This document shows, piece after piece, positions 38,487-59,216 of a stretch of DNA of 64,000 nucleotides (position 1 is the stretch's first letter; every line of letters begins with the position of its first letter). The stretch is from Roseovarius litoreus (lineage in GTDB: Bacteria > Pseudomonadota > Alphaproteobacteria > Rhodobacterales > Rhodobacteraceae). A program made the translations under genes and the position numbers. The notes beneath the pieces are model-generated. The model was not told the origin of the DNA. It searched no databases and saw nothing but the letters and a program-made list of their open reading frames with translations. The stretch lies in NCBI RefSeq assembly GCF_900142765.1, contig NZ_FRCB01000001.1:186001-250000 (forward strand), read 5' to 3'.

Positions 38487-38596
38487 CGCTTGCCTCCATT
38501 CGATCGGCGCCACCCTAGACAAAGGAAAGACGCTTTGCTATACGGCCACTTCCTGCAAACTTACGCAACTTCAACTTGGAAAGGTGGTGACACCAC

Positions 38597-38803: not shown

Positions 38804-38839
38804 AGACCGCAGCACGCCGAACGCGACACAAGAACGACG

Positions 38840-38874
38840 ACCCCCGGGCAGCCGCTTCGGGGGTTTGTCTTTTC
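38840..38874 (+). terminator. Intrinsic terminator after rpsU
   Basis: ACCCCCG (38840-38846) pairs with CGGGGGT (38858-38864), followed by TTGTCTTTTC. The remainder of 38875-39095 shows no gene. Confidence 0.85.
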
Positions 38875-39095
38875 TGAAATCACGTGCATGGAAAAAGCGT
38901 CGTGGTCAAAGCCGTGTCGGCCGGATCTGCAAGCCACCGCGCCTTGGCCATTTCGTGAAATCGAAGGCAGGGGAAAAGACATCTGGTCTGATCCCGTTTC
39001 CGCGCGTCGTAGCGTCATAAACGAGGATCGCTTGCATCCTTGGCTGCTTGAATATACCCAGCGGTCATACATGACAAACTTATGACGGACCCAAA

Positions 39096-39785: not shown

Positions 39786-39787
39786 CG

Positions 39788-40822: not shown

Positions 40823-40931
40823 CTCACGCCCTTCCCGGCTGCGTCCCTCTCTGCAGGCTTCCCCTTGCAGGTTGCAGTTGCTATGCAGCCCTAGTTTCGT
40901 TCACACGCCAAAAGGCTGTTTTCCAGCGCCG

Positions 40932-41816: not shown

Positions 41817-42436
41817 CATCGCAGTCATTGCCCAAAGACACCGCATTTTGCTTTGATCTGGACGGCACGATCACGCAGACCGAACTGCTGCCGCTGATCG
41901 CCGCCGAAATCGGGCTTGAGCGGGATATGGCCGCGCTGACCAAGGCGGCGATGGAGGGCCGGACCGCGTTCGAGCCCTCGTTCCGCCATAGATGCCAGCT
42001 TTTGAGCGAGATACCGCCAGACACGATAAGGCGTGTGATATCCGACGCGCCACTTGATCCGCATATTCTGGGATTCATCCATGAGAACCGGGAGGATTGC
42101 TTCATTCTGACCGGCAATCTCGACATCTGGATCGCGCCCATCATCGAGCGCTGTGGATGCCGCGCCTATGCGTCCGAAGGCATGTATACTCATGGCACGC
42201 TCGAGCTGACGACAATCCTGAACAAGGCGGCAACCCTGCGCCGTATCGCAGAGACGTTTGACTACAGGCGCATCATCGCCATCGGCGATGGCGCCAATGA
42301 TGCCGACATGCTGTCCGAAGCCACGATCGCGATCGCCTTCGGCGGCGTGCATCCTCCCGCAGCATCGGCAATCCACGCCGCGGACCATGTGGTGTATGAC
42401 GGGAAGGCATTGTGCAGCCTGCTGAAGTCGCTTTGA
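41813..42436 (+). CDS. HAD-superfamily phosphatase (SerB/HAD-IB-like)
   Basis: 207 aa. Motif I is FDLDGTIT (about residues 14-21), motif II ILTGNLD (a Thr before Gly; about 98), and motif III/IV GDGANDADML (about 163-172). This is phosphoserine-phosphatase-like in topology, but the alpha-helical cap is short. It is coupled to the preceding glycosyltransferase, so a sugar-phosphate or lipid-phosphate substrate is plausible. The substrate is not determined. Confidence 0.85.
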   Translation: MTSQSLPKDTAFCFDLDGTITQTELLPLIAAEIGLERDMAALTKAAMEGRTAFEPSFRHRCQLLSEIPPDTIRRVISDAPLDPHILGFIHENREDCFILTGNLDIWIAPIIERCGCRAYASEGMYTHGTLELTTILNKAATLRRIAETFDYRRIIAIGDGANDADMLSEATIAIAFGGVHPPAASAIHAADHVVYDGKALCSLLKSL

Positions 42437-42592
42437 AGATATGCCAGGACATCGGCAGATCCCGAACCGGGTCCACACATCTGCCAGCGGGACAAGAACG
42501 AAAATTGACTTCACGAAGACCGGCCAATAAAAGCCCGACATCGTTGGGTCAGAGCCAACCGTGACATTTTTCGGAATACTGGAGCCCGCCTG

Positions 42593-44368
42593 ATGGGAAA
42601 ATCCTCCCAAAAACAACCGATGTTCAGTCCAACCGACATCGACAACATCAAGTGGTTTTGGCGGAATTACCTGAAGGACAAGTCGCCCTGGTTGCTGTTG
42701 GTCCTCGCAATGGTCTCGGCGCAGGCCCTTGTTTATCAACAGTTCCTGTCGCTCACCGAAAACGGGCTTCGGGTCATCTTCGAGGATGGCTCACTGTCCC
42801 AATTGATCAAGGTCTGCGCATTCGTGTTCCTTCTCTTCGGCACGCGTGCCGTGTTGTCTTATGTGACGCCCCGCATTTCGGTCTGGCTTGCCAGCAACGC
42901 GGTTCGCTCCATGCGGCAGGATCTCATCAAGCATTTGTTGCGGCTGGACCTATCTTACTTTGAAAAGACAAAATCGGGCGATATCATCCTGCGCCTGGTC
43001 AGTCAGGTCGACAGCCTCAGTCATTTTGTGGGACAGGGCACTGTCGCCGCCGTGAGGGATTTGGCCACGGTCATCGTGGTATCAGGGTATTTGATCTATA
43101 AATCCCCCCTGCTCTTTACGGCTGCCATGATCGTGATACCGGTTCTCGTTCTGATGATGCGCGGGATCTCCGGCAAGATCAAAGAGGTCCAGCAAAGCGC
43201 GGAAAACGCGTTTGGCAACTACATGTCGGGCATCGAAGAGATGACCAACGGCATGCGCACGGTGAAAATCTCGGGTCAGGAAGATCGCGAGCGGGATCGG
43301 CTGTTCGAGGCAACCAACGGCATCCGTGATCTGATGATCAGACTGAATGCCGTGCAGGCTCTGTTCCCACCTTCGATCGATGTCGTGTCTGCCTTTGTCT
43401 ATGTGTTGGTCATCGGCGGCGGCGGCTACATGGTGATCCAGGGCGGGTTCGGCATGGATGCCGCCGGGATCATCGCGTTTTTGCTGGGCCTCGTGATCAT
43501 GTTCGATCCGCTGCGCCTGCTGGCCAGTTTCTTTGCCCAGTTGCAAGCCAGCCTGATTCTGCTGGACAGCATTCGCGGGGTCTACCGCGAGAAAATGCGC
43601 ATCACGGATCACGAAGGCTCGGTCGCAGAGTTCAACACCGAAGGTGACATCAAATTCGATCAGGTCAAATTCGCATATGACCCGCAGCACCCCCTGTTCG
43701 AGGATCTGGACCTGATGATCGAAGGGGGCAAGAAAACCGCCATCGTGGGCGCGACCGGGTCGGGCAAGACCACGGTCCTCAGCCTTATCACCCGGCTTTA
43801 CGATGTGGATGGCGGCAAGATCACCATAGACGGGCTCGATGTCCGGGACATCAAGGTCAAGTCACTGCGCAGCTCGTTTTCGGTCGTGGCTCAGGACATC
43901 GTGATCTTCAACGACACGATCTATGAAAACATCCGTTACGTCGCCCCGAACGCAACGGAAGAAGAAATCTGGGCCGCTGCGGAAGCCGCTGAAATCGCAG
44001 ACCTCATGCGCGCAAGAGGAAGTGCGCCGCTTGGCCCCAAGGGCAGCCAGCTGTCCGGCGGACAAAAGCAACGCATCGCCATCGCCCGCGCTTTCCTGCG
44101 CTCGGCGCCCATACTCCTCTTGGACGAGGCCACATCGGCCCTCGACCAGAAAACCGAAGAAAAGATCCAAGGCGCCCTCCAGCGCCTGTCCAAAGACAAG
44201 ACGACGATCATCGTGGCGCACCGCCTGTCATCAGTCGTCGCGGCGGACAAGATCTATGTCCTGGATATGGGGCAAGTCGTGGAACAGGGCTCTCACGCCG
44301 AACTGATTGCCAAACAGGGTCTCTATGCGGCCATGTACGCCTCTCAGAAAGAAGGGTATGCGACCTGA
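42593..44368 (+). CDS. ABC exporter, fused permease and ATPase (MsbA-like)
   Basis: 591 aa, TGGAG 8 nt before the ATG. The membrane domain occupies about residues 25-330 (six helices). The ATPase domain has Walker A GATGSGKTT (about 386), signature [14 protein letters not shown] (about 485) and Walker B ILLLDEATSALD (about 506). Homodimeric exporters of this type flip lipids or lipid-linked sugars. Being among glycan genes, it may move a lipid-linked glycan or lipid A-type substrate. 156 nt after the HAD gene. Confidence 0.92.
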   Translation: MGKSSQKQPMFSPTDIDNIKWFWRNYLKDKSPWLLLVLAMVSAQALVYQQFLSLTENGLRVIFEDGSLSQLIKVCAFVFLLFGTRAVLSYVTPRISVWLASNAVRSMRQDLIKHLLRLDLSYFEKTKSGDIILRLVSQVDSLSHFVGQGTVAAVRDLATVIVVSGYLIYKSPLLFTAAMIVIPVLVLMMRGISGKIKEVQQSAENAFGNYMSGIEEMTNGMRTVKISGQEDRERDRLFEATNGIRDLMIRLNAVQALFPPSIDVVSAFVYVLVIGGGGYMVIQGGFGMDAAGIIAFLLGLVIMFDPLRLLASFFAQLQASLILLDSIRGVYREKMRITDHEGSVAEFNTEGDIKFDQVKFAYDPQHPLFEDLDLMIEGGKKTAIVGATGSGKTTVLSLITRLYDVDGGKITIDGLDVRDIKVKSLRSSFSVVAQDIVIFNDTIYENIRYVAPNATEEEIWAAAEAAEIADLMRARGSAPLGPKGSQLSGGQKQRIAIARAFLRSAPILLLDEATSALDQKTEEKIQGALQRLSKDKTTIIVAHRLSSVVAADKIYVLDMGQVVEQGSHAELIAKQGLYAAMYASQKEGYAT

Positions 44369-44692
44369 CGAAGTGTCGAAGAGAGAGCGGCCGCAACATC
44401 GAAGCATCCACCTACCTGCACTTGAAGCCAAGGCGCGCGCGTCAAGCTGCACCGGATGCCGCCTTTCACATCTTGCGCCTCGACTTCCAAGCCAGACAGA
44501 GATGCATACTATCCACACCGCGCGGCTACCGCATCGCTCCACCCGAAATGGTAACGCCCTGTCATACCGCGCCGCAAAGACAGCCTGCCCGCCATCATCC
44601 GATGGACCCGCGCCGGATCATCGACTAAGCATCATGCGCGGCCTTCCATAAGGCGCCCAAGGATCAACGTCAGGTAATCAGGATTTCAGCCG
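44369..44692. other. 324-bp gap without a recognised gene
   Basis: No open frame here has family features or a ribosome site. A 68-codon plus-strand frame at 44422-44628 has atypical composition (many Pro/Arg/His) and is not credited. The gap should contain the promoter of the RgpF-like gene; AGGA precedes that gene's ATG. Confidence 0.4.
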
Positions 44693-45847
44693 ATGCGGAA
44701 ATTTCCTCTTTGGAAACTCAAGCGCGAGATCCTGCGCTTCGGCCGACAGATCGCCGAACTGCCGGGCCTGACATGGGAATATTTCGACCTGCGCACCAGC
44801 TATGACCGCAAGGCGGCTGCCATGCGCAAGACCCATGAGGGTGATCTGCCGATGGGCCGCGAGGTGGCCATCTACCTGATCTTTCCGGCGGGCGGCATCC
44901 TGGCGTCGCATCTCGACGCGCTGCGCCTGATGATCGACGAGGGCATCAGCCCGGTCGTTGTTTCGAACCTTCCGCTCTCCACGGACGATCTGGCAACACT
45001 GGCGCCCCTGACCACCCGGATCATTGAACGTCCCAACCTGGGCTATGATTTCGGCGGCTACAGGGACGGTATTCTGGCGCTCGAAAGCACCCTGCCCGAT
45101 CTGGACCGGCTCTATATCCTCAACGATTCCGCCTGGATGGTGGAGGCGCCGCAAAGCTGGTTCGACGACGTGCGCACCAAGGGCGTGGATTTCTGCGGGG
45201 CCACGTCGAATTACGGGATCAAGCGCCATGACGCAGACGATTTCCGCGACCTACGCTGGCAATACACGATCCATCACCGGAATTTCCATTACGCCTCTTA
45301 TGCGTTGGCCATCGGACGGACCATTCTACAGGATCCGGCCTTCGTGACCTTCTGGAAACGCTTTCGCCTGTCGAACCAGAAAAAGCGCACCGTCCGGCGC
45401 GGCGAGATCGGTCTCACGCAATGGGTTATGCGGCATGGTTTCAGCCATGAGGCCACCTGTTCCGTCATGGACCTCGACACGGAAATCGCGGCGCTGGACA
45501 CGGCCGAGCTTGACGCCGTGACGCGCAACCTCATCATCCCTGAACGCCCCCGGATCCGGGCAAAGCGCGACGAGGTACTGCTCAGCGATCCAGCAACCCC
45601 CGAGGGCCGGCGCGACCGTATCCAGATCATCCTGACTGCGGTCTCGGCGCAGGCCATGGGCTATGTGATGCCCTATTACACGCTGCGCCATCGCGGCTTT
45701 CAGTTCGTCAAGAAGTCACCCCTGTGGATATCAGCGGCGGGATCGCAAACGACGCTCGACATCCTGTCGTCCCTGCCCGGTCCGATGGGCCAGACAGCCT
45801 ATGCCGAGGCGCTGCAGATCGTGGCAAACCGTCCCCCGGCCGAGTGA
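44693..45847 (+). CDS. RgpF-like rhamnan/polysaccharide synthesis protein
   Basis: 384 aa. The block VAIYLIFPAGGILASHLDALRLM followed by VVVSNLPL, RPNLGYDFGGYRDGIL (about residues 112-127) and LYILNDSAWM matches the RgpF domain (rhamnan synthesis F), a glycosyltransferase-like fold. It probably acts in cell-surface polysaccharide assembly. The last 46 codons (45710-45847) occur again at 52446-52583 with 10 mismatches, on the far side of an AT-richer operon. Confidence 0.85.
   Translation: MRKFPLWKLKREILRFGRQIAELPGLTWEYFDLRTSYDRKAAAMRKTHEGDLPMGREVAIYLIFPAGGILASHLDALRLMIDEGISPVVVSNLPLSTDDLATLAPLTTRIIERPNLGYDFGGYRDGILALESTLPDLDRLYILNDSAWMVEAPQSWFDDVRTKGVDFCGATSNYGIKRHDADDFRDLRWQYTIHHRNFHYASYALAIGRTILQDPAFVTFWKRFRLSNQKKRTVRRGEIGLTQWVMRHGFSHEATCSVMDLDTEIAALDTAELDAVTRNLIIPERPRIRAKRDEVLLSDPATPEGRRDRIQIILTAVSAQAMGYVMPYYTLRHRGFQFVKKSPLWISAAGSQTTLDILSSLPGPMGQTAYAEALQIVANRPPAE
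45710..45847 (+). repeat. Left copy of a 138-bp direct duplication (rgpF-like 3' end)
   Basis: It encodes KKSPLWIS to the stop of the RgpF-like protein. The right copy lies at 52446-52583 in the same orientation. By hand alignment without gaps 128 of 138 bases agree, and homology stops exactly at the stop codon and just before the first Lys codon. The two copies bracket 6.6 kb of lower-GC DNA. Confidence 0.9.
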
Positions 45848-46003
45848 TCCCTCGCTGACGCCCGGATCAGCTTGCCGCCTATGGGACATGATTCAGTTGG
45901 CGGAAGATCATCGGGTCAGTTCAGAAGGGACCCTTGATGGTCCTGCAACTAGCTGGTAACGCTTTTGAGCGTCCACCCGCAGGTGAGTTTGGCTGCTATA
46001 TCG

Positions 46004-47914
46004 ATGTTCAAAAGACTAAGGGATAAGGCTTGGAGGACCGAGCAGGAAAACTACGGAAAGCCGGACGCCGACTGTGGAAAACTTCCAGTTCAAGAATGGC
46101 GACCCGTGCAGATGGGCGAACGCATCAGGGTCGTATTCTTGGTGATGACGCCCCAGATTTGGCCATCCGTGGAGCCTGTTTGGCGCAAGGTCGCGACTGA
46201 CGAAAGGTTCCATTCGAAAGTCGTTGTCATCGAGAAAAACTCGGATGTCGACGCGCTTTCAGGGCTGCAGGGTGCACATGAGCTTCTGACAGCGCGAGGC
46301 GTCCCTTTTGCGAAAGGTGCTTCTTTCTCGCTCGCGGCATACGAGCCGCATATTGTTTTCTACCCACTTCCTTACGACCACTTCTATCCGCCAGAATTTG
46401 CACCGGAATTGGCGCAGTCGATTGGCGCCCGTATCGCGTACGTTCACTATGGTCTTGAAGTTGGGGGAGGTGCCTACAACGCTAAGTACCAGCACGATGA
46501 GCCCATTCTCCGCAACGCCTGGCGGATTTTTGCGCGATCCCGACACCAGATGTCGAATTTCGCAAAATACTGCGAAAACGGAAACGCCCATGTCGTCCTT
46601 ACCGGGCATCCACGCGGGGATAAATCGCCTGCTGATGAAGGGCAATTACCTACGGATGCAATATCAAGGGCCAACGGACGCAAAATTGTTTTGTGGACAC
46701 CACATTTCTCTGTGGCAGGTCGGCGGAAATGGTCTTCGTTTCTGGAGAACCATGCGACGATCGCAGAAGAAATTGAAAAACGGAAAAATCTTTTCTTCAT
46801 CTTCAGGCCACACCCCTTCTTGGAGAGCACCTTGAGGACCGCAGAAGGCTGGGACACAGAAACAGTCAATCAGCTTTTTGACCGCTTCCGAAAAATGGAA
46901 AACCTGTATTTCGACACAAGCCCCGACTATTGGCCTACATTCAACGGTTCGGATGCGTTGATGACTGACCCCGGGTCGTTTTTGGTGGAGTTTTTGTTGC
47001 TTGATCGACCGATCTGCTTGTTGGAAAGCAAGGACGGCATAGGGCTTTCGCAAGAGGTTGCAGGTTTCACGGCCTTTGAAGCTGGAGCAACTGGCCAAGA
47101 AATAGCAGCGTTTCTTGATTTGGTGGAGCAGGGCAAGGACGAGAAATCCGCTGCGCGCCAGAATGCAAGACAACAATATTTCGGGTCAAGCGATGGTTTG
47201 GTCGCGCAACGTATCGTCGACGAGATGGTGCATGGCATCTCTGACCGGCCTTACACGATCGCGCGCGTGAAAGAGAACGAAAAACACGAGGCGGCGTTCC
47301 GTTATTGGAAACAGGCCAAAACGACGTTTCTCGCCCCCGAAGAGTACTATGCGAAGCAAGAGGTTTTGTTGAAGCAGCTTCTTGAACGTTTGCAACCGGC
47401 CGGATTTGCGCTTGATGCAGGGTGCGGAAATGGACGCTTTACAGAAGTCTTCGCAAGGTTTTTCGAATTCGTCGAGGGGTTCGATCCAGGGGAAGAACTC
47501 ATCAAGCAAGCACGTGCAAACGCCCAAGATAACGGCATCTCGAACATCGAATACCGGATTGACAGCCTGGAGACCCCCTCTCTGATGTCAACCTACGACT
47601 TGGTGTCCTGCATGGGGGTCCTGTCTGGAGTTATCGATAACGAACGTTTTCTGCAGATTACACATTGGCTGCGCGCAGCTTGCAAACCAGACGGACTGCT
47701 ATTGTTGAAAGACAGTCTGAGCGTCGGCTCTGCTCAATCCATAGAAGCTGACGGCTACGTGGCGGTGTACAGGAACATAAGTGACTACCTGGCGGCATTT
47801 CGTGCAGCGGGTTTCTCATTGGAAGAAGAAATTGTCATCGCTCCAACGAATGACAAGGGCCTGACCAATCGGCTGTTTGTCCTGCAAGCTGTCGCTTCTC
47901 GGGTTGGTGCATGA
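46004..47914 (+). CDS. Fusion of a CDP-glycerol glycerophosphotransferase-like domain with a SAM-dependent methyltransferase
   Basis: 636 aa from the ATG at 46004; an in-frame TTG at 45965 is an alternative and the ribosome site is weak. Residues about 1-420 resemble TagB/TagF glycerophosphotransferases: AYVHYGLEVGG, VLTGHPRGDKS, VLWTPHFS, FIFRPHPFLE and DALMTDPGSFLVEFLLLDRP. Residues about 465-630 form a class-I methyltransferase with FALDAGCGNGRFTEVF and YDLVSCMGVLSGV. The predicted role is transfer of a phosphate-linked group from a CDP donor onto a glycan plus a methylation. It is first of the seven-gene operon; ATGATG junction with the next gene. Confidence 0.78.
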   Translation: MFKRLRDKAWRTEQENYGKPDADCGKLPVQEWRPVQMGERIRVVFLVMTPQIWPSVEPVWRKVATDERFHSKVVVIEKNSDVDALSGLQGAHELLTARGVPFAKGASFSLAAYEPHIVFYPLPYDHFYPPEFAPELAQSIGARIAYVHYGLEVGGGAYNAKYQHDEPILRNAWRIFARSRHQMSNFAKYCENGNAHVVLTGHPRGDKSPADEGQLPTDAISRANGRKIVLWTPHFSVAGRRKWSSFLENHATIAEEIEKRKNLFFIFRPHPFLESTLRTAEGWDTETVNQLFDRFRKMENLYFDTSPDYWPTFNGSDALMTDPGSFLVEFLLLDRPICLLESKDGIGLSQEVAGFTAFEAGATGQEIAAFLDLVEQGKDEKSAARQNARQQYFGSSDGLVAQRIVDEMVHGISDRPYTIARVKENEKHEAAFRYWKQAKTTFLAPEEYYAKQEVLLKQLLERLQPAGFALDAGCGNGRFTEVFARFFEFVEGFDPGEELIKQARANAQDNGISNIEYRIDSLETPSLMSTYDLVSCMGVLSGVIDNERFLQITHWLRAACKPDGLLLLKDSLSVGSAQSIEADGYVAVYRNISDYLAAFRAAGFSLEEEIVIAPTNDKGLTNRLFVLQAVASRVGA

Positions 47915-48693
47915 TGCAAAATGGAAGCCAAAAGCAGCGCGCGGTCATCTTACTTGCCGCTGGCCAAGGATCGCGCCTGCGTCCACTTACTGAAACGTGC
48001 CCTAAATCGCTTTTGAAGATGGGGCAAAAAACCGTTCTGGAAACGATCCTCGATTCCGTGCTTGAAACCGGCCCCCGTGAGATCGTGGTTGTTACCGGGT
48101 TCGAAAGCGAACAAATGTCCGAATTCGTTGCCGCAAGATATCGCGGAAAAGACGTGCGTACGATTGAAAACGTTGACTACCTGTCAGACACGAATATCCT
48201 TTCCGCCCAAGTTGGCGTTTCAGCCCTGTCAACCCCTGAAAATGGGTATTTCCTCATCGAAACAGACATCATTACAACCCCGGATGTATGGAAATCCATC
48301 ATAGCACAGGAAGCACGCCTTGGCAGTTTCTGGGTCACGCGTGGTGTCTACGGTGCAGATCTGACCGGAGGCATTGTGCAAGTGGACGGGACCGGCATGG
48401 TTACTGATATCCGATATGAGCCGCTCTACGATCCTCGTTTTGATGGTTGGCCCAAGATGCTGGGCGTCTTGAGCGTTGGGCCCGACGAAGTTGCCGCAGA
48501 TATAGAAACGCGACTCTTGGTGTCTGAGCAATCGACTTTCAATTACTACATGGTGCCCTGGATTACTTATTCCGAGCGCCTTCCGTGTCGGATATTTGAT
48601 CTGAAAGATCATTTTGCGATGTCATTCAATACAATGGACGACTATCAAGCAGCCCAAATTGCTTTTGCATCCCAACAGCGAGGCTCAACTTGA
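47911..48693 (+). CDS. Nucleotidyltransferase (LicC/CTP:phosphocholine-type or sugar-phosphate)
   Basis: 260 aa. The signature AVILLAAGQGSRLRPLTETCPKSLL (about residues 10-34) is the NTP-transferase GxGxRxxPxTxxxPK motif. Asp residues for metal binding appear in FLIETDIITT (about 113). The nucleotide is likely CTP or another NTP, and the phosphorylated substrate is unknown. LicC and the Campylobacter phosphoglutamine cytidylyltransferase are the same fold and similar length. It is coupled on both sides by overlaps. Confidence 0.82.
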   Translation: MMQNGSQKQRAVILLAAGQGSRLRPLTETCPKSLLKMGQKTVLETILDSVLETGPREIVVVTGFESEQMSEFVAARYRGKDVRTIENVDYLSDTNILSAQVGVSALSTPENGYFLIETDIITTPDVWKSIIAQEARLGSFWVTRGVYGADLTGGIVQVDGTGMVTDIRYEPLYDPRFDGWPKMLGVLSVGPDEVAADIETRLLVSEQSTFNYYMVPWITYSERLPCRIFDLKDHFAMSFNTMDDYQAAQIAFASQQRGST

Positions 48694-49079
48694 TGGACGT
48701 CAGCTTCTTTCCCGTCGCCGAACTCAAGCACATTGAAGGGTTCAGTCAAAAGCGCGTCGATTGGCTGACGCAAAAAATCCTGGATGAAGGCGTTTGGACG
48801 AAACCCCTCGCCCTTGATGATGAACATGGATTGGTGCTCGATGGACAGCATCGCATGGAAGCCGCACTTGCGCTAAACCTCAAGCGCGTGCCTGTTGTCC
48901 GGTTTATCTATGCTGACGTGCCTTTGCGTTCGTTGCGTCCGAACAATCATACGTTCACCTGGGAGACTGTTGTTGACCGCGCGCTGTCAGGCGACATTTA
49001 CCCTTACAAAACAGTCAAACATGACTTCTCGGATCCCCTTCCCCAAATCAACATCAATCTCGAGGATCTGCGCACATGA
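48693..49079 (+). CDS. Small ParB/Srx-fold protein resembling free-serine kinases (SerK/SbnI type)
   Basis: 128 aa. The ATG at 48693 overlaps the preceding stop (TGATG). LALDDEHGLVLDGQHRMEAALALNLKRVPVV contains the ParB-fold DGQHR motif (about residues 50-54), equivalent to DGHHR in ADP-dependent serine kinase SerK and in SbnI. A Glu in HIEGFSQKR (about 15) may match their catalytic Glu. The tail TWETVVDRALSGDIYPYKTVKH mirrors the family's K-(T/S)-x-(R/K)-H end. I infer phosphorylation of serine or a similar hydroxy compound. There is no DNA-binding domain, so a plasmid-partition role is unlikely. Confidence 0.62.
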   Translation: MDVSFFPVAELKHIEGFSQKRVDWLTQKILDEGVWTKPLALDDEHGLVLDGQHRMEAALALNLKRVPVVRFIYADVPLRSLRPNNHTFTWETVVDRALSGDIYPYKTVKHDFSDPLPQININLEDLRT

Positions 49080-49744
49080 CGGTGTCACGCGCAATCATAT
49101 TGGCCGCCGGTCAAGGCTTCCAACTGGATGGAATCTGCAAGGTTTTGTTGCGTCATCCGACAACTGGAAAAACCATTCTCCAGACGGCGATAGAAGCGTT
49201 CAACGGAAAAGAGATCACAGTTGTCGTTGGCTATAAAGCAATCGACATCATGCAGGATTACCCCCAACTCGACTATGTGATTAATCCGGATTGGGCCGCG
49301 TCCAGCAATGCACTGAGCCTGGGCCTGGCATTGGATGACCGGCCGGCATATGTCGTTTCCGGTGATATCTTTCTTAGCCGGGACCTTATCGCCGAGTTGG
49401 ATCAGTCGGCACCTGACCTTGTCTTGTGCGAAGGTCGAGAGAACCGCAGCCTTACAGCAGTCCATTGTGTATTCGACGAGGCTGGAGTTCTGGAAGAAAC
49501 ATATCACGGCCCGGTGCGAGATCATAAGCACCCCGAAGCCATCGGTCTCTTCAAGGCCTCCAGCTCGGCTTTGCTGCAACGCTGGAAGAAACAGTGTCTG
49601 AAACACTCGAACCTGTTTGTAGGCGAAACACTCCCGTTTGATTCCGCACCGATCCACCGCCACGACTTGGGCGAACATGCCTTCGACGAGATCAACACGC
49701 ATGTGGACTATCTGAACCTGCTCCAGAGGTGCAGAGAACCATGA
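49076..49744 (+). CDS. Second nucleotidyltransferase-fold protein with an altered signature
   Basis: 222 aa. SRAIILAAGQGFQLDGICKVLL retains the Gly-rich loop (GQG) and a later Lys but has Gln in place of the usual Arg and lacks the P-x-T-x-x-P segment. VSGDIFLSRDLI supplies the metal Asp, and RENRSLTAVHCVFDEAG follows. The form resembles MobA-like or phosphoglutamine-cytidylyltransferase-like enzymes. It may activate a second substrate or be catalytically altered. ATGA overlaps on both sides. Confidence 0.72.
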   Translation: MTVSRAIILAAGQGFQLDGICKVLLRHPTTGKTILQTAIEAFNGKEITVVVGYKAIDIMQDYPQLDYVINPDWAASSNALSLGLALDDRPAYVVSGDIFLSRDLIAELDQSAPDLVLCEGRENRSLTAVHCVFDEAGVLEETYHGPVRDHKHPEAIGLFKASSSALLQRWKKQCLKHSNLFVGETLPFDSAPIHRHDLGEHAFDEINTHVDYLNLLQRCREP

Positions 49745-50985
49745 TCCGCGCAATTACAATCGGCCTGCCAATCTATGACATGCCATTGCCTGAAATTCGT
49801 GCTCAGGTCAGCGAATTTTCTCAAGCGATGGGCGATGCCATCAACGAACGCCAATGGCCGATGCGGACGACCAGATACTGTCTGCCGCCACTACCTACAT
49901 CTTTCGAAGCGGAAGCACACAAAATCCCGGCCTTGATCGGCTCCGTCGCCCGGTTGTCAGATGAAACCGGCGTCCGATGGTTTTGCTTACCCGTTGATCT
50001 GACAGACGACACCCCGCACAAGGCGCGCCTGGACGCGCTATTGTCCACGCTATTGCGAGAAGAGCGTTTGTTTACAAACCTGATCGTCGCAAAGGACAAG
50101 ACCATATCCCTGCGCGGCGCCCGGTCAACGGCTGAGTTCATCCTGTCTGTATCGCGCAAAAGCCGAAAAGGTTATGACAATTTCCGTTTGGGCGCCTCAT
50201 GCGAGTGCCTTCCGAACACGCCCTTCTTTCCCTTTTCGCGCCACGAAGGGTTGGATCTTGCGTTTAGCCTTGCGCTTGAAACGACTGAAATCGCTTTGGA
50301 AGTGGCTCGAGGAACCAGGTCACTCGAGCAGTTTCAATCCGAGTTCGTCGAGCGGTTGTCAGAGCGGTTGGTTGAAACGGATCGGTTCGCATCGGAACTG
50401 TCAACGAAAACCGGTGCTCGCTATGCTGGCTTGGATTGTTCTCTTGCACCATTCCCGGACGGCAAGACCTCGGTTGGGCGATTATTAGAACTGCTGGGGG
50501 CGGATCCGTTCGGCAGCCATGGCACAGTCTTTCTGACAGCGCTTTTGACCGATTGCCTCAAAACCTCGATCTCTTCGACCGGGGTTCGTTCGACAGGATT
50601 CAATGGCGTCATGTACTCGGTCCTGGAAGATGACATCCTGTCAAGGGCAAGCCGCCGCCGCCGCCTTGATATCTCGGCGTTGAATCTGTTTGCCACGATG
50701 TGCGGATGTGGCCTGGACATGATACCCGTGCCAGGGGACGTGCTTGTTGATGACATCGAACTGGCAATTCTGGATACTGCCACGTTGGCGGTCAGGCTCA
50801 ACAAGCCGCTCGGCGTCCGTTTGTTGCCGATCCCTGAGCATACGCTTAATGAGATGACCGAATTCAACATGGACTTTCTGTGCGACGCCAGGGTTTTCAA
50901 TCTTCCCGGATCTGATTCCCACCTAGTGTTTGACGAAACGCAATGGGCATTTCAGAGCCCGCACGCCATAGGTAAGCAAAAATGA
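49741..50985 (+). CDS. DUF711/UPF0210-family protein
   Basis: 414 aa. It shows the family's blocks: MIRAITIGLPIYD at the start, NTPFFPFSRHEGLDLAFSLALET (about residues 159-181), YAGLDCSLAPFPDGKTSVGRLLEL (about 224-247), GSHGTVFLTALLTDCLK, GFNGVMYSVLEDDILSRAS and TMCGCGLDMIPVPGDVL (about 317-333). I recall that the fold resembles glycyl-radical-enzyme barrels; no reaction is established to my knowledge. Here it lies in a surface-decoration operon, a context that may help assign it. The start overlaps the previous gene (ATGA). Confidence 0.8.
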   Translation: MIRAITIGLPIYDMPLPEIRAQVSEFSQAMGDAINERQWPMRTTRYCLPPLPTSFEAEAHKIPALIGSVARLSDETGVRWFCLPVDLTDDTPHKARLDALLSTLLREERLFTNLIVAKDKTISLRGARSTAEFILSVSRKSRKGYDNFRLGASCECLPNTPFFPFSRHEGLDLAFSLALETTEIALEVARGTRSLEQFQSEFVERLSERLVETDRFASELSTKTGARYAGLDCSLAPFPDGKTSVGRLLELLGADPFGSHGTVFLTALLTDCLKTSISSTGVRSTGFNGVMYSVLEDDILSRASRRRRLDISALNLFATMCGCGLDMIPVPGDVLVDDIELAILDTATLAVRLNKPLGVRLLPIPEHTLNEMTEFNMDFLCDARVFNLPGSDSHLVFDETQWAFQSPHAIGKQK

Positions 50986-51680
50986 TCGACGCCGAAAAAG
51001 TCAAAGCATTTTGGGAAAATCGTGCCGCCAAAATGGGCGAGGTTGCGTTCGAGAGCATTGTGAACTTGGAGGAAGACCAGGAAGCTCTTGCCGAGAAGAT
51101 CCGGGTTGAGAAGGAAAATGTCTTCAAAACTCTTGGAGATGTCACAGGCAAATCGATCCTGGATCTCGGTGCTGGCATCGGGCAGTGGGCGTTTCGCTTC
51201 GTGGAGCACGGCGCCAAGCATGTAACAGCTGTTGAATATGCTGCGAACCTTGTGCGCATTGGTCGAGAGGAAGCAAAACGCCGGGACGTTTCATGCATAG
51301 ACTTCATTGAATCGCCCGCGGAAAAATTCACTTCGGCACAAAGATTTGATATTGTTTTCATCTCTGGATTGTTCGTGTATCTGAACGACGATCAGGTGGA
51401 GGAATTGATGCCACATCTGCGCGAGATGACCGCCCATAGCGGTGTCGTTGTGCTACGCGATGGCACAGGGGTCCCCGAGCGCCACGAGATCAACCAAAAA
51501 ATGTCAGATCATCTGGGGCTTGAGTATTCGGCCATTTACCGTACCCGAGAAGACTACATGCAGCTTTTTCTCGATATCGGGCTCGAATGCCGGCATGAAC
51601 AGAACATGTTTCCAGAGGGGCACCCGCTGAATAAATATCCCGAGACAAGGCTGCGGCTTTACAGGTTTGAAAAAGGGTAA
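50982..51680 (+). CDS. SAM-dependent class-I methyltransferase
   Basis: 232 aa. SAM-binding motif I is ILDLGAGIGQWAFRF (about residues 58-72), motif II-like VTAVEYAANLV, and motif IV FDIVFISGLFVYL (about 121-133). Its N-terminus VKAFWENRAAKMGEVAFESIVN resembles the class of methyltransferases found in glycan and natural-product clusters. The acceptor is unknown. It overlaps DUF711 by ATGA, and its TAA overlaps the racemase ATG as TAATG. It is a second methyltransferase besides the fused domain. Confidence 0.85.
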   Translation: MIDAEKVKAFWENRAAKMGEVAFESIVNLEEDQEALAEKIRVEKENVFKTLGDVTGKSILDLGAGIGQWAFRFVEHGAKHVTAVEYAANLVRIGREEAKRRDVSCIDFIESPAEKFTSAQRFDIVFISGLFVYLNDDQVEELMPHLREMTAHSGVVVLRDGTGVPERHEINQKMSDHLGLEYSAIYRTREDYMQLFLDIGLECRHEQNMFPEGHPLNKYPETRLRLYRFEKG

Positions 51681-52426
51681 TGCCACGTATTTATCCGACA
51701 CTACCAGACGTGAGGTGGCCTTCGGAAGAAGGAGCCATAGGTGTCGTCGGAGTGGCCCCATGGGCCACCGTGGATTTTCTTTCGCAAGTATACAAACACA
51801 CTACGGCATCGAAGGATTGGCAATTTCCTCGCGTTTTGGTGGATGCCAACTCCAAAATCCCCAGCCGAGGTCGATATTTCGATCTGAATGAAACCGATCC
51901 GTCGCCTTACATTGCAGCAACAATAGATGAGCTGATAGCAGCCGGCGCTTCGGTCGTGGTTGTACCATGCAACACCGCACATATTCTTTTCGATCGCTGG
52001 TGCTCTCCGGAACGAACCGAGGTCGAAAGCATCATTGACGCGACGCTAGCGGAATTGTCAAAGGACGATCCAGATCGCGTCGCAGTGCTTGGGTCAGTGC
52101 ATTTGGTGCGTCACAGAACCTATCTCGAGCCGTTGGAGAACTCCGGTTTTCTGTGCCACGATGTCACGGATGATGAACAGCGCTTGATCAACATGATCAT
52201 CAGCGAAATCAAAATTTCAAATACACTTCAAGAAACGACATCTGTCGGGTTCAGGTTGATTCTGGAAAATCTTGAAGACTTGGGCACAAAAACCATCATT
52301 CTCGGATGCACAGAGCTGGCGCAAGCTTTGCGCTGCGTGACTGATCATCGGTTCACTGGTCAGATCATTGACTCGAACGCTGCCTTGGCAAAAGCGGCAC
52401 TTCTTCGATTGGTTCAGGCTGGGTGA
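51680..52426 (+). CDS. Aspartate/glutamate racemase-family protein
   Basis: 248 aa. Both catalytic Cys motifs of the PLP-independent racemase family are visible: VVPCNTAHILFD (about residues 95-106) and IILGCTELAQAL (about 209-220). VVGVAPWATVDFL replaces the usual GGMGPEAT opening. Relatives (YgeA/RacX) racemise diverse amino acids. It is last in the operon, suggesting a D-amino acid or an epimerised precursor in the product. Its stop lies about 20 nt before the duplicated rgpF-like tail. Confidence 0.82.
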   Translation: MPRIYPTLPDVRWPSEEGAIGVVGVAPWATVDFLSQVYKHTTASKDWQFPRVLVDANSKIPSRGRYFDLNETDPSPYIAATIDELIAAGASVVVVPCNTAHILFDRWCSPERTEVESIIDATLAELSKDDPDRVAVLGSVHLVRHRTYLEPLENSGFLCHDVTDDEQRLINMIISEIKISNTLQETTSVGFRLILENLEDLGTKTIILGCTELAQALRCVTDHRFTGQIIDSNAALAKAALLRLVQAG

Positions 52427-52445
52427 AAGCTCAGTGGCAGGCCAC

Positions 52446-52583
52446 AAGAAATCACCCCTGTGGATATCGTCGGCGGGATCGCGAACGACCCTCGACATCC
52501 TGTCGGCCCTGCCCGGTCCGATGGGCCAGACAGCCTATGCCGAGGCGCTGCAGATCGTGGCAAACCGCCCCCCGCCGGAGTAA
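52446..52583 (+). pseudogene. Remnant of a second rgpF-like gene (last 46 codons)
   Basis: It encodes KKSPLWISSAGSRTTLDI to NRPPPE and a stop, matching the end of the RgpF-like protein with four amino-acid changes (A/S, Q/R, S/A, A/P) and a different stop codon (TAA for TGA). The upstream part of the gene is missing; sequence before 52446 belongs to the racemase end and a short joint. This is the right flank of the acquired segment. Confidence 0.88.
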
Positions 52584-52597
52584 TGCGGCGAGGGTGC

Positions 52598-53695
52598 TCA
52601 GACCAGTTCGCGCACAGCCGAGATGACCTCATCGCACTGGGCTTCAGTCATCTGCGGGCCAATGGGCAGGCTGATGACCTCGCGCGCAAGACGACTGGCC
52701 AGTGGCAGGTCCGCATCCGACAAACCCATCGGGCCATAAGCCGCCTGCGCATGCGGCGCGATCGGATAATGCACCAGGGTCTGGACCCCACGCTCGGCCA
52801 GCCGCGCAATGAACGCATCGCGCTCGGGATGGCGCACCACGAACAGGTGCCAGACCGGATCGACACCGGCTGCCACCTGCGGAAGGATCAGCCCGGTATC
52901 TGCGAAAGCGTAAAGATAGCGCGCGGCAATTCCCGCCCGGCGCGCGTTCCATTCGTCCAAAACCCTCAGCTTTACCGACAGGAACGCCGCCTGCACCGGA
53001 TCAAGCCGGCTGTTCAGGCCCGGCTCTTCATTGCGGTATTTCTCGCGTGAGCCGTAGTTGCGCAACAGCCGCAGCCGGTCGGCGATCTCCGGATCATCGG
53101 TGGTGATCCCACCACCATCGCCGAGCGCACCAAGGTTCTTGCCGGGATAGAAGCTCCAGCAGACCGCGTCGCCATGCGCCCCGATCCTGCGCCCCCCCGA
53201 CCGCGCGCCATGGGCCTGCGCGGCATCTTCGATCACCTTGAGGCCCAGCTCGCGCGCCACCGGCATGATCGCGCCCATATCGGCCGGCTGACCATAGAGA
53301 TGCACGGGGATCACCGCCTTGACGCCAGGCTGCATCGCGGCACGAATGCCTTCGGCAGTGATGTTATGCGTGGCCTCGTCCGGCTCGACCGGCACCGGCA
53401 CCGCGCCGCATTGCGACACCGCCAGCCACGTCGCGATATAGGTATTCGACGGCACCAGGACCTTGTCGCCCGGCCCGATATCCAGCGCCATCAGCGACAA
53501 ACGCAGGGCATCCAGCCCGTTGGCCACACCAATGGCATATTCCGCCTCGCAATAGCTGGCGAAAGCGGTCTCGAACCGCTCCACATCCGGCCCGAGGATA
53601 TACCAGCCCGACCGCAACGAAGCGAGCATCGCGCCTTCGGCCTCGGCGGCCAGCTCGTCATAGGCGGCTTTGAGATCCAGAAACGGCACCACCAT
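52598..53695 (-). CDS. DegT/DnrJ/EryC1-family sugar aminotransferase (FdtB-like)
   Basis: 365 aa from the ATG at 53695, one base after the upstream stop. [13 protein letters not shown] opens the fold; the PLP-binding Lys is in [15 protein letters not shown] (about residue 182), and NYGSREKY and [12 protein letters not shown] are conserved. It transaminates a keto-deoxyhexose nucleotide. With the adjacent 3,4-ketoisomerase this is the FdtA/FdtB pair for dTDP-3-amino-3,6-dideoxygalactose; the enzymes making the dTDP-keto sugar are not in the window. Confidence 0.88.
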
Positions 53696-53696
53696 G

Positions 53697-54104
53697 TCAG
53701 CCGCGCACTTCTTTGATGAACTGATCGTGGTCGCGAATATAATCGCCCTCATCGTAAAACGCCGATGCCATCACCATGCACACCGCACCCGATGAAAAGT
53801 TGTCCAGATAGCGCCACATCATCGGGCAGATATAAATTCCGAAATATGACCGGTTCAGGTGGAACGTCTTTTCCTCATACCCGTCGCTCAGCGTCAGATC
53901 GAAACTGCCCGACATGGCGATCATGAACTGATGCAGGTTGCGATGCGCATGCGCGCCCCGATCCGATCCGCCAGGCACATCATAAAGATAATAGACACGC
54001 TTGATGTCGAAAGGGATGTGGTTGCCGCCCTCGACAAAGGTCAGGTTGCCCCGTGCGTCTTCGATCTTGGGCAGGTTGATGATCCTGCATTGGCTCAGCG
54101 ACAA
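53697..54104 (-). CDS. dTDP-4-keto-6-deoxyglucose 3,4-ketoisomerase-like cupin (FdtA/WxcM C-terminal type)
   Basis: 135 aa from a TTG start with GGAGGG 6 nt upstream, which decides this start. The cupin fold is visible: [30 protein letters not shown] (His residues at about 49 and 51 are catalytic in FdtA), and [14 protein letters not shown]. It isomerises the keto group from C4 to C3 before transamination by the downstream aminotransferase. The 54105-54349 gap upstream shows no gene. Confidence 0.88.
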
Positions 54105-54349
54105 GAATTTCCCTCCTCGTGGGCAAGACGATGCGCCCTGCCATGTCCCTCAAAATCGACGCGCTGCGATTCGGTCACTCACTGACGTCGGGATAGCGAA
54201 TTTTATGGCACCCGACCAGCGGCCGACCTGCAAAGCCGCCACAGGCCAGACCTTTGCAAGCCTCCGGTAAAGACGACGCTTTGACAATGGAGGTTTGAAC
54301 AGCAAAACAACACCATGTCTTGCAGTTTCAGATCAAACCGGACCCGAAC

Positions 54350-56263
54350 ATGAAATACCGCCCCGAAATCGACGGTCTACGCACCGTCGCCGTGATGCCG
54401 GTCATTTTCTTTCATGCCGGTCTGGACCTCTTTTCGGGCGGGTTTGTCGGCGTCGATGTTTTCTTCGTCATCAGCGGATATCTCATCACGTCCATCCTGA
54501 TCGACGATCTGCAAAAGGGCACATTCTCGATCGCGCGCTTCTACGAACGCCGCGCAAGACGCATTCTGCCCGCGCTGTTCTTCGTCATGCTGTGTTGTGC
54601 GCCCTTCGCATGGGCCTGGATGCTGCCATCGCAGATGGAGGATTTCGGCAGGTCCGTGATCGCCGTGGTGTTCTTTGCCTCGAACATCCTCTTCTGGCAG
54701 AACATCGATTATTTCGCGCCCGCGGCCGAAGATAATCCCCTGCTGCACACATGGTCTCTGGCCGTGGAGGAGCAGTTTTACATCTTCTTCCCGCTCCTGC
54801 TCTTGTGGCTCTGGCGCTTTGGCCGCAATCCAGCCTTCTACGCGGTTCTTGGGATTTGCGTCGTGAGCCTTTTGCTGGCGGAACTGGGCTCGCGGACGGC
54901 CCCTGGCGCCACATTCTACCTGCTGCATACCCGCGCCTGGGAATTGGGTGCGGGGTCGCTCTGTGCCTTCGTGCTGCACCGTCGCGGCCCACTTGCGAAT
55001 GGCTATCTTGCGGCTGCGGGTCTGTTGGCCGTGCTCATGGCGGCGACACTCTATGACAAGACGATTCCCTTTCCGTCGCTCTATGCGCTCTTGCCGGTTG
55101 TCGGCACCGCACTGATCATCCTTTATGCAGGCCCGTCGACAGTGGTCGGAAAGCTTCTTTCGCTGCGCGGCATGGTGGCGATCGGCCTGATCAGCTACAG
55201 CGCCTATCTGTGGCACCAGCCGCTTTTCGCCTTCGCGCGCATCCGCAGCCTGACCACCCCATCCGAGCCTCTGATGATCGGCCTGAGTCTTTTGTCACTC
55301 GGCCTTGCCTATCTCAGCTGGAGGTTCGTCGAAGCCCCCTTCCGGCGTAAAACCGGGATGTGGCTTCCAGCCCGCCGCCACGTCTTTGCCGCCAGCCTGC
55401 TGGCAAGTCTGACCATTTGCATCGCAGGCGGCATTGTCGTGTCCCGCGAGGGGGCGGTGCTGCGCGCGGATGCCGAAGAGATGCGCGGGCTTGATGACCG
55501 CATCGCCATAAATCCGGGCCTGCATATCGACTGCACTGCGGACTTCACGCTTTCCGAGAAATGCCGGACATCCGACACGTCCGAAATCCTGCTTTGGGGC
55601 GACAGTTTCGCGATGCACTTGGCCCAGGGGCTTTTGGCCAGCGATCCGGAAATGAAGCTGCAACAGCACACCAAATCACAATGCGCCCCGATGCTTGGCA
55701 TCGCCCTGAACCTGTCGACGGCAGGATATGGCGAGCAATGGGCGCGCGACTGCATGGCCTTCAACGATCAGGTGCTGGAGTGGCTCGAGGCCAATGACAG
55801 CGTGACCCATGTCGTTCTGTCATCCCCGTTTTCCATCATCTTTTACGATCTGTTCGACCGCGAGGGCACTACATATTCCGCGTCTCAGGATCGCGTTCTG
55901 GCCGCTTTGCGCGAAACCTTGGCGCGGATCCGTGACACCGGCGCCGAGGTTGTCCTCTTCGCCCCGACACCCGGCAGCGGTTACGACACAGGAGCCTGCG
56001 CCATGCGCAGTGCAAGGTTCGGTCTTGATGAGGCCACCTGCGATTTCCCGCCTGGTGATGAACTGGACAAGATAGTGGCAGACTTTCTGGCGCAGGTGGC
56101 CGATGAGGTGAAGATCTTGGACCTGACAGACATGATTTGCGGCACCGGCACATGCGATGTCATTCAGGACGGCGCTTTGATTTACCGCGACAGGTTTCAT
56201 CTCTCCAAAGAGGGATCGGCCTATCTGGGTGCGAAATGGGATTGGGCCGGGATGCTGCGATAG
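54350..56263 (+). CDS. OafA-type acyltransferase: AT3 membrane domain plus SGNH hydrolase-like domain
   Basis: 637 aa from the ATG at 54350; an in-frame TTG at 54320 is possible. MKYRPEIDGLRTVAVMPVIF and GGFVGVDVFFVISGYLIT are the hallmarks of acyltransferase family 3; about ten helices reach residue 375. A C-terminal domain (about 405-637) has LLWGDSFAMHLAQG, the SGNH block I Asp-Ser, and DRFHLSKEGSAYLG with the late Asp-x-x-His. Such proteins O-acetylate LPS O-antigen or other glycans in the periplasm. Confidence 0.92.
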   Translation: MKYRPEIDGLRTVAVMPVIFFHAGLDLFSGGFVGVDVFFVISGYLITSILIDDLQKGTFSIARFYERRARRILPALFFVMLCCAPFAWAWMLPSQMEDFGRSVIAVVFFASNILFWQNIDYFAPAAEDNPLLHTWSLAVEEQFYIFFPLLLLWLWRFGRNPAFYAVLGICVVSLLLAELGSRTAPGATFYLLHTRAWELGAGSLCAFVLHRRGPLANGYLAAAGLLAVLMAATLYDKTIPFPSLYALLPVVGTALIILYAGPSTVVGKLLSLRGMVAIGLISYSAYLWHQPLFAFARIRSLTTPSEPLMIGLSLLSLGLAYLSWRFVEAPFRRKTGMWLPARRHVFAASLLASLTICIAGGIVVSREGAVLRADAEEMRGLDDRIAINPGLHIDCTADFTLSEKCRTSDTSEILLWGDSFAMHLAQGLLASDPEMKLQQHTKSQCAPMLGIALNLSTAGYGEQWARDCMAFNDQVLEWLEANDSVTHVVLSSPFSIIFYDLFDREGTTYSASQDRVLAALRETLARIRDTGAEVVLFAPTPGSGYDTGACAMRSARFGLDEATCDFPPGDELDKIVADFLAQVADEVKILDLTDMICGTGTCDVIQDGALIYRDRFHLSKEGSAYLGAKWDWAGMLR

Positions 56264-56354
56264 GGCGAAAAACAAGGCGAACGGGCAGGTGCAGCCACCG
56301 GAACCAGACATAGTACGGGGCTGAGCTCAACCACGGCATCCATGGGAAAAGCTG

Positions 56355-57194: not shown

Positions 57195-57258
57195 GGATTG
57201 TCCATTCTCTTGCACGACAGTTTTCACGACGCGTCCGGTGTCCGATAATATTCTGCGT

Positions 57259-58386: not shown

Positions 58387-58561
58387 TGTTCTGAGACCTT
58401 TGTCTGTTTCTCGTGGTCTCATTAAAGAGACACATGGCCGTTTGAAAATCGCATGTTCAGGATTGCCTACTAACAAGGTCAATGAATCTCAAGACCATTG
58501 ATATCAAGCCGGGCTTGATTTTACCTCGGATCAGCCCGCTGCGACGCCCCTGAAAACTGCG

Positions 58562-59179: not shown

Positions 59180-59216
59180 CAAGTTACCACCTGTGAATTG
59201 CAAACCGTGCAAATTG

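Follow-up and report, generated by a model that had tools for sequence, protein, structure and literature searches.

By analogy, the closest precedent for the locus described here is the pair of flagellin glycans formed by Type A of C. difficile (CD0240-CD0244) and b-type of P. aeruginosa PAO1 (PA1088-PA1091), both proposed to be made via CDP-threonine. For these clusters, a phospho-amino acid is proposed to be converted to a CDP-amino acid, with an N-methyltransferase and a TagF-like phosphotransferase in the same pathway; the nucleotidyltransferase is likened to phosphocholine cytidylyltransferase, and the unit is linked to the sugar by a phosphodiester (PMC10714395, PMC11833859). Threonine is the amino acid in these glycans and flagellin the protein that they decorate, and a HAD protein of the ThrH/phosphoserine-phosphatase-like kind is thought to provide the phosphate (PMC10714395, PMC11833859). 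CDP-threonine as the donor for a surface decoration was proposed only in 2023 (PMC10714395).

The window analyzed here is a 64,000-nucleotide stretch of a Roseovarius litoreus contig, and it carries a cassette of seven forward-strand genes, A to G (46004-52426), described in the initial annotation as overlapping at each junction. All seven reading frames are open and all six junctions overlap (A/B by 4, B/C by 1, C/D by 4, D/E by 4, E/F by 4, and F/G by 1 nt); the start codons are ATG, with both a TTG at 48690 and the ATG at 48693 possible for gene C. Pfam bears out the initial family calls of a phosphotransferase/methyltransferase fusion, nucleotidyltransferases, a DUF711 protein, a methyltransferase, and a racemase. 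Likened by described functions, the cassette and the two flagellin clusters each combine a nucleotidyltransferase, a methyltransferase, and a TagF-like transferase; they differ in that a ParB/SerK-fold protein stands in place of the HAD protein, there being no HAD domain among the seven cassette proteins by Pfam, and in that the cassette contains, beyond these, DUF711, a racemase-like enzyme, and another nucleotidyltransferase. What is new relative to the known flagellin pathway is the putative ParB-fold kinase, the DUF711 protein, the racemase, and the existence of viral versions.

Biosynthesis of the O-methyl phosphoramidate (MeOPN) of Campylobacter also uses an amino acid kinase, a CTP-dependent cytidylyltransferase, and a transferase, and the pathway proposed for the cassette shares this kinase, cytidylyltransferase, and transferase logic. 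MeOPN synthesis differs in depending on a glutamine kinase, a glutamate-removing hydrolase, and phosphoramidate chemistry, and no MeOPN-type kinase or hydrolase domains are present in the Pfam matches of the seven proteins. The Type A and b-type glycans are closer to the cassette than the MeOPN system, which the initial annotation had named as an analogue (PMC10714395, PMC11833859). Among the open-licence papers listed in our literature searches, none was seen to describe these genes as a set; the logic itself had already been proposed for Type A and b-type.

The cassette looks foreign, to judge from its lower GC content (52.4%, with flanks of 60.2% and 60.4%), a flanking direct repeat, and the presence of gene E in only one of 292 genomes sampled from its order, namely its own. 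The left copy of the 167-nt repeat (45709-45875) consists of the 3' end of an RgpF-like gene (44693-45847; PF05045), which makes up most of the repeat, plus a short stretch beyond; the right copy (52445-52611) is a remnant of the same 3' end, and the two forward-strand copies are 87% alike. The surrounding host locus contains GT2, RgpF-like, FdtA, DegT, and acyltransferase genes. A SerB-like HAD gene lies outside the cassette at 41813-42436, and in a congener that lacks gene A, a SerB-like HAD gene likewise stands next to GT2 and RgpF genes.

Gene C (48693-49079, 128 aa) has no Pfam match, yet SerK ranks first for it in both NCBIfam and the PDB, in line with its initial description as SerK/SbnI-like; its scores fall far below the equivalog cut-offs for both SerK (24.7 bits against 380) and SbnI (12.4 bits against 350). 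The predicted structure is a single 128-residue domain of the ParB/sulfiredoxin fold (pLDDT 95.5) that superposes on SerK (5x0k) over 127 of 128 residues with an rmsd of 1.3 Å and Z of 19.1, and on SbnI (5uje) over 128 residues with Z of 17.1; Z is 8.7 or less for sulfiredoxin, Noc, and ParB chains. Residues E16, D51, G52, H54, and R55 are unchanged in all nine aligned sequences, and the invariant glutamate aligns with SerK Glu30, which is mutated in several SerK PDB entries (E30A and E30Q in their titles). Gene C thus resembles SerK and SbnI in its fold, this glutamate, the DGxHR stretch, and the C-terminal strand, but it aligns to SerK residues 16-242 with about half of the intervening residues missing. 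On the strength of the structural model, we propose that gene C encodes a compact free-serine kinase. Short relatives of gene C also occur on rhizobial plasmids amid siderophore genes and with a cysteine-synthase-family gene, a setting that we take to resemble the operon in which SbnI supplies phosphoserine.

Proteins of the ParB fold frequently act as switches, and a SerK-like archaeal protein bound CTP, so gene C could instead be a nucleotide-dependent regulator in an operon whose LicC- and TagF-type enzymes build a conventional phosphate decoration of the polyol or choline kind; a TagD-like gene upstream of the related Burkholderiales locus described below would suit such a decoration. We consider this very improbable, as gene C is a lone 128-residue domain, all six loci that we compared retain its Glu30 equivalent, its DGxHR stretch, and, at the C terminus, a PYKTV[KQ]H motif, and it is fused to a nucleotidyltransferase in two of them.

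Genes B (47911-48693, 260 aa) and D (49076-49744, 222 aa) both match NTP_transf_3 in Pfam (43.2 and 35.5 bits; cut-off 27), with D a diverged relative at 23% identity to B. LicC (1jyk) is the first of 16 PDB matches to gene B alone (45.2 bits), and a profile built from both types of domain, B and D, places LicC (76 bits) and PntC (74 bits) on top, whereas a sequence search with gene D on its own returns nothing from the PDB at E ≤ 0.1. An LAAG motif, one lysine, and one aspartate, presumably the metal site, are invariant in these domains, and D has a glutamine in the LAAG loop where B has an arginine. The cassette differs from the LicC and PntC systems in having no choline or phosphonate genes. 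Sequence comparison therefore leads us to propose gene B as a LicC-type cytidylyltransferase that would use CTP and phosphoserine.

CDP-linked donors are typical of the TagF and LicD families, and gene A (46004-47914, 636 aa) has a TagF-like phosphotransferase domain (residues 177-408; Glyphos_transf PF04464, 47.4 bits, cut-off 22.1) followed by a SAM methyltransferase domain (residues about 456-604). Gene F (50982-51680, 232 aa) is a SAM methyltransferase by Pfam, putatively an N-methyltransferase of the amino-acid unit. Gene G (51680-52426, 248 aa) matches the Asp/Glu racemase family (PF01177, 81.7 bits), a superfamily characterized by two cysteines, and its C97 and C210 are invariant in the three bacterial loci. 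The cysteate racemase CuyB is the nearest curated family for the racemases of all three, at 139.5 (gene G), 147.0, and 153.5 bits, all of which are under the CuyB cut-off of 190.

Putting these assignments together, we judge it slightly better than an even bet that the cassette makes a CDP-activated amino-acid unit and joins it through a phosphodiester to a glycan at the surface. Free L-serine would be phosphorylated to O-phospho-L-serine by gene C, and phosphoserine and CTP would be joined to form CDP-serine by gene B, perhaps with D. The amino-acid unit would then be altered by G and E, with the alpha carbon probably inverted or equilibrated by G, and methylated by F together with the C-terminal methyltransferase domain of A, whose TagF-like domain would finally pass the phospho-amino-acid unit on to an acceptor sugar with release of CMP. 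The analysis establishes the gene set, its recurring core, the folds of C and E, and the conserved residues; from these we infer serine as the substrate, CTP as the donor, the order of the steps, and a glycan as the acceptor. Phosphorylation, activation, possible epimerization and methylation, and transfer had been suggested at the outset, and this is partly supported: the logic fits the gene set and its recurring core, but it has precedent in Type A and b-type, and the steps are predicted from sequence. If CDP-serine or a relative is made, the cassette would represent a second such route, based on another kinase, widening the chemistry to racemization and extra methylation and extending its reach to viruses.

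The same logic could operate on a hydroxy or amino compound other than serine, and C and B would then act on threonine, on some hydroxy acid, or on whatever the DUF711 and racemase enzymes produce. The methylated threonine of the Type A and b-type glycans, the resemblance of G to cysteate rather than serine racemase, and the presence of E in every one of the six cores all speak for such a unit, but the model of C fits closely onto kinase structures determined with phosphoserine, and archaeal SerK is reported to be specific for free serine and inactive towards threonine and homoserine (PMC5120207). We regard a non-serine unit as unlikely, and retain serine as the preferred substrate.

Genes for a nucleotidyltransferase, a SerK-like protein, and a DUF711 protein are adjacent in 6/6 loci found, three bacterial and three on viral contigs, and the first two are fused in two of them (Coriobacteriaceae and one viral contig). 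This adjacency argues that the A-G genes belong together, and recurrence of the set elsewhere argues that the grouping is more than chance, with statistics kept thin by the few loci (n=6) and the rarity of the whole set. The expectation that the genes co-occur in other genomes therefore holds for the core, with the full seven-gene set not found in all loci. A Burkholderiales contig keeps B-C-D-E-F-G in order, at 43, 59, 54, 46, 55, and 43% identity, and a TagF-like sequence adjoins them. In a Coriobacteriaceae contig, the B-C fusion is followed by DUF711 and racemase genes, with a LicD gene adjacent; no F-like gene was found in these 6.8 kb, and a scan of the phylum of this genome recovered that genome only (1/376). 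Because a gene D counterpart is absent from four of the six loci, the racemase was not found in any of the three viral loci, and F is missing from the Coriobacteriaceae contig, the D, racemase, and F steps are not universal.

The three viral contigs share an arrangement in which a sulfatase-family gene is followed by nucleotidyltransferase, SerK-like, DUF711, and methyltransferase genes, and the contig with the nucleotidyltransferase-SerK fusion has an extra gene following the sulfatase-family gene. No TagF or LicD relative was noticed near the three viral cores, only the sulfatase-family gene; a UDP-sugar-dehydrogenase-type gene lies near one of them (L050). Putative glycosyltransferases are also seen by eye at L050. 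Searching four viral records for terminases yielded a single sub-cut-off match, in a 335-kb contig, and PHROGs matched 4 of 10 viral-locus proteins, including an exonuclease near the L052 locus, and had no match for E; the viral status of the contigs therefore rests mainly on the IMG/VR call. Two further candidates were set aside: L054 (4.5 kb), whose B-C fusion runs into portal-like sequence (by eye) with no DUF711 gene, may be chimeric and was excluded from the six, and L055 has a weak C match (30%) with none of the other six proteins matched. Further viral scans returned the same three contigs only. Scanning named phages with the viral E and B-C proteins gave 17 partially matching records with coverage of at most 49% (12 fecal 'Bacteriophage sp.', four Listeria, and one Enterococcus); of the other named-phage scans with these proteins, one was matchless and one gave two records, whose annotated neighbors include no such set.

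Gene E (49741-50985, 414 aa) is a DUF711 (UPF0210) protein (PF05167, 200.8 bits, cut-off 25), and its structure matches that of the DUF711 protein SP0239 (2ha9; Foldseek E 9.1e-17, Z 35.4, rmsd 2.6, 354 aligned). Family and fold are thus shared with SP0239, as are six residues, Cys321, Glu296, Asp297, Asp326, Lys355, and Arg360, which are common to all 34 other DUF711 proteins. It belongs to a diverged subfamily, in which F111, N147, F148, E180, T270, Y292, and other positions are invariant in the six loci but different in 26 to 34 of the 34 others. A literature passage places DUF711 in the ribonucleotide reductase/glycyl radical enzyme barrel superfamily, and gene E shares the glycyl radical enzyme barrel fold with Z of about 12. 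A glycyl-radical role was set aside because the radical-loop motif is absent from all 40 DUF711 sequences, as judged with a crude pattern (RV.G[FWY].[STA]).

In the passages available from the open-licence literature we found no function for DUF711/UPF0210, and the cassette would supply a pathway context for a family that already has a solved structure. It is possible, though on balance doubtful, that the DUF711 family acts on free or CDP-linked amino acids, and that this subfamily, with a compact ParB-fold serine kinase and a CTP-dependent activating enzyme, makes a new CDP-amino-acid donor for the decoration of bacterial surface glycans and, in the case of some large viruses, of their own or their host's. 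By extension, the remaining DUF711 family would act on a related amino-acid phosphate.

A DUF711 protein with the CGCG motif of the six loci is located after an NRPS gene, which means that the chemistry of E-type proteins need not involve glycans. That relative, the short SerK-like proteins within siderophore operons, and the lack of an exporter of its own in a Pfam scan of the seven cassette proteins would be expected if the genes made a small soluble metabolite, such as a nucleotide-linked or phosphorylated amino-acid natural product, rather than a glycan decoration. We think this improbable, since A belongs to the TagF family of transferases, the bacterial relatives are accompanied by LicD and TagF genes, the host locus has the GT2, RgpF-like, FdtA, DegT, and acyltransferase genes, and L050 has the dehydrogenase-type gene and the putative glycosyltransferases noted by eye; a surface glycan is thus our preferred acceptor.

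DUF711 matches were present in 266 of 296 genomes sampled from one bacterial class. Among 35 other DUF711 loci (2.6-4.2 kb each), none has a B- or C-like neighbor. Two DUF711 genes of intermediate score from the window's phylum (165 bits and 162.5 bits) and another, at 128.6 bits, from the class to which the Coriobacteriaceae genome belongs were also examined in contexts of 8.9-18 kb, where E alone was matched. Scanning plasmids with E gave 29 records, none of which reaches 60% identity or spans 80% of E; the gene names in these records, where given, are PFL family or UPF0210.

The seven plus-strand genes A to G (46004-52426) overlap at every junction, by 4, 1, 4, 4, 4 and 1 nt from A to G, as the initial annotation described, and its domain assignments are borne out: A (46004-47914) joins a TagF-like domain (Pfam PF04464) to a methyltransferase, B (47911-48693) and D (49076-49744) have the nucleotidyltransferase fold, E (49741-50985) is a DUF711 protein, F (50982-51680) a methyltransferase and G (51680-52426) an Asp/Glu racemase. 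Gene C (48693-49079, with a possible TTG start at 48690) has no Pfam match, and its match to the NCBIfam SerK family is weak, at 24.7 bits (cut-off 380).

The genes form a coherent set. With E as query, a pattern scan of the genome collection, limited in reach to close relatives, found two loci. A Burkholderiales contig keeps B-C-D-E-F-G in order, with identities of 43, 59, 54, 46, 55 and 43%; a TagD-like gene lies upstream (137.7 bits; cut-off 165.4), and a TagF-family gene (PF04464, 160 bits) and a second stretch matching A at 26.5% lie downstream on the opposite strand. On a Coriobacteriaceae contig, B and C form a single ORF followed by DUF711 and racemase genes, and a LicD-family gene on the opposite strand starts ~160 nt away. 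Scanning viral contigs with a three-sequence E profile identified three loci (L050, on a 335-kb contig, L051 and L052), all with a sulfatase-family gene and then nucleotidyltransferase, SerK-like, DUF711 and methyltransferase genes; in L050 the nucleotidyltransferase and SerK-like proteins are fused, with one extra gene (5998-6774) preceding the fusion, and the L051 methyltransferase scores 26.5 bits, just under the Pfam cut-off of 27. Among the six loci, the window's included, a gene-neighborhood comparison showed the nucleotidyltransferase (B), SerK-like (C) and DUF711 (E) genes to be adjacent in every one, with a methyltransferase after E in five; the co-occurrence expected of all seven genes thus holds for the B/C/E core but not throughout, as, within the stretches compared (6.8 to 19 kb in the five loci other than the window's), the racemase is present in three loci and D in two. 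None of 35 other DUF711 loci (2.6-4.2 kb, spanning near neighbors only) encodes a C-like or B-like protein at E <= 0.01, using five queries for C and two for B.

High-scoring relatives of E were also counted in genome samples, in each of which the genome used as the center is itself among the matches. There are two (E <= 1e-50) in 349 genomes from the order of the Burkholderiales genome, the second of which (G1177, 219 bits) lies in a different setting from the cassette, and one in 296 from the class of the Coriobacteriaceae genome, where 265 others have a DUF711 match scoring at best 129 bits versus 610. One of 398 genomes in the window's phylum has such a relative, with four others at 113-165 bits, and two further samples gave 1 of 7 and 1 of 376. 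The DUF711 gene of the G1177 locus (L056, 9316-10530) has the cassette-type CGCG motif; its neighbors, read by eye, are an NRPS gene before it and thioesterase and phosphopantetheinyl transferase genes behind it.

The predicted structure of E (pLDDT 78, with residues 370-414 poor) matches SP0239 first (Z 35.4); ribonucleotide reductases come next, at Z up to 14.3, and then glycyl radical enzymes at Z ~12. A glycyl radical loop motif, sought with a crude pattern, was not found in the DUF711 sequences compared. Because some residues fixed across the six loci (R45, D232, S234, P237, S244, K274, E296, D297, C321, G324, D326, D345, K355 and R360) also occur unchanged in all 34 other DUF711 proteins, and others (F111, N147, F148, E180, T270, Y292 and more) differ there, we read the E-type sequences as having one DUF711 active site with a putatively altered substrate pocket.

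An AlphaFold model of C built from six sequences (pLDDT 95.5) superimposes 127 of 128 residues on SerK-type chains at 1.3-1.8 Å (Z 15.3-19.8) and 128 residues on SbnI (Z 13.9-17.1), in agreement with the original assignment; sulfiredoxin, Noc and ParB chains score Z <= 8.7. Relative to SerK, C skips about half of the chain, the 127 residues aligning over SerK range 16-242. All nine aligned C-type proteins, three of which come from other operons, share Glu16, Asp51, Gly52, His54, Arg55, Pro105, Lys107, Thr108 and His111 (numbered from the TTG start), and Glu16 aligns with SerK Glu30, a residue mutated in several SerK entries. Short C relatives with no annotation beyond that of a ParB N-terminal domain protein are encoded on Agrobacterium vitis (L005, 8914-9438) and Bradyrhizobium (L006, 9001-9432) plasmids beside PLP enzyme, cysteine-synthase-family, octopine-dehydrogenase-family and IucA/IucC genes, a setting that we take to resemble staphyloferrin B synthesis; these are likely unrecognized SbnI-type serine kinases in siderophore operons. 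SbnI makes phosphoserine for staphyloferrin B synthesis, according to the title of a cited reference. A SerK-like protein on a Chimaeribacter arupi plasmid (L007, 8959-9387) has a different setting from the other two, an unexplained biosynthetic set of pyrE, dihydroorotate dehydrogenase, PLP enzyme and hydroxylase genes. Counting against C as a kinase, a SerK-like archaeal protein binds CTP and not ATP in a screen, in the part of the report drawn on here (PMC12704722). On a 4.5-kb viral contig (L054, 1079-3778), a nucleotidyltransferase-SerK fusion runs into portal-like sequence, judged by eye, and may be chimeric.

Searched alone against the PDB, B matches LicC first (45.2 bits) and D has no match at E <= 0.1; a profile built from eight domains of B and D type places LicC (76 bits) and PntC (74 bits) ahead of the GlmU family. 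LAAG, one Lys and one Asp are invariant in these domains, with D having Gln instead of Arg in the loop. Since the LicD and sulfatase-family genes at other loci belong to families other than the TagF of A, the comparison suggests that different transferases may draw on a like donor. The G-type racemase keeps both cysteines in all three loci, and cysteate racemase is its best curated family each time, under the cut-off. Cobetia phage Carin-5 (L057, 7995-8717) has a nucleotidyltransferase annotated as CTP:phosphoglutamine cytidylyltransferase beside glycosyltransferase genes, and CDP-linked decoration pathways of other kinds may be present in phages.

The proposal that an amino acid is phosphorylated, nucleotide-activated and put on a glycan fits the gene set and its recurrence, although we infer the serine substrate, CTP donor and glycan acceptor. 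In the best reading, serine would be converted to phosphoserine, CDP-serine and a modified CDP-amino acid, which would then form a glycan phosphodiester. The logic has precedent: in the sections of two reports used here (PMC10714395; PMC11833859), the Clostridioides difficile Type A glycan is GlcNAc-phosphate-N-methyl-L-threonine, the Pseudomonas aeruginosa b-type glycan is deoxyhexose-phosphate-N,N-dimethylthreonine, and CDP-threonine is proposed for both pathways. As far as those sections go, the gene sets have the same proposed roles as the cassette, but the phosphate-transfer protein is a HAD enzyme rather than a ParB-fold protein, and DUF711, the racemase and the second nucleotidyltransferase are extras of the cassette. 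The cassette would therefore be a variant on known logic.

The cassette looks like an insert in its host locus. GC content is 52.4% between two copies of a 167-nt direct repeat (45709-45875 and 52445-52611; 87% identity), versus 60.2% before (38001-45875) and 60.4% after (52612-56311), and third-position GC is 0.52-0.61 in the seven cassette genes versus 0.71-0.77 in seven neighbors. The repeat consists largely of the 3' end of the RgpF-like gene upstream and is likely a scar of the cassette's arrival. Of 292 genomes sampled from the order, only the cassette's own yielded E. RgpF gene-like DNA is found in 12 of 84 genomes of the genus, counting the window's own and two with 28-nt stretches only; in regions from five of the 12, the RgpF gene is present in all and gene A, the sole cassette gene queried there, in none.

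Because the cassette is surrounded by GT2, SerB-like HAD, ABC transporter and RgpF-like genes on one side and DegT, FdtA and acyltransferase genes on the other, the locus fits a surface polysaccharide setting. The HAD protein (41813-42436), nearest to SerB at 82 bits (cut-off 144), adjoins the GT2 gene; in a congener (L077), GT2 and RgpF genes likewise have such a HAD protein alongside. In the Type A glycan model, as given in the section used (PMC10714395), the phosphate step is assigned to HAD proteins of SerB-like type. In a second block, on the minus strand (56355-62928), third-position GC is low in each of four genes for which it was computed: the methyltransferase gene (0.50), DegT (0.55), 59217-60824 (0.55; 535 aa, with no Pfam match at 1e-5) and GT2 (0.59). 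A further methyltransferase and a hexapeptide protein are encoded there too, and this is perhaps another acquired glycan block.
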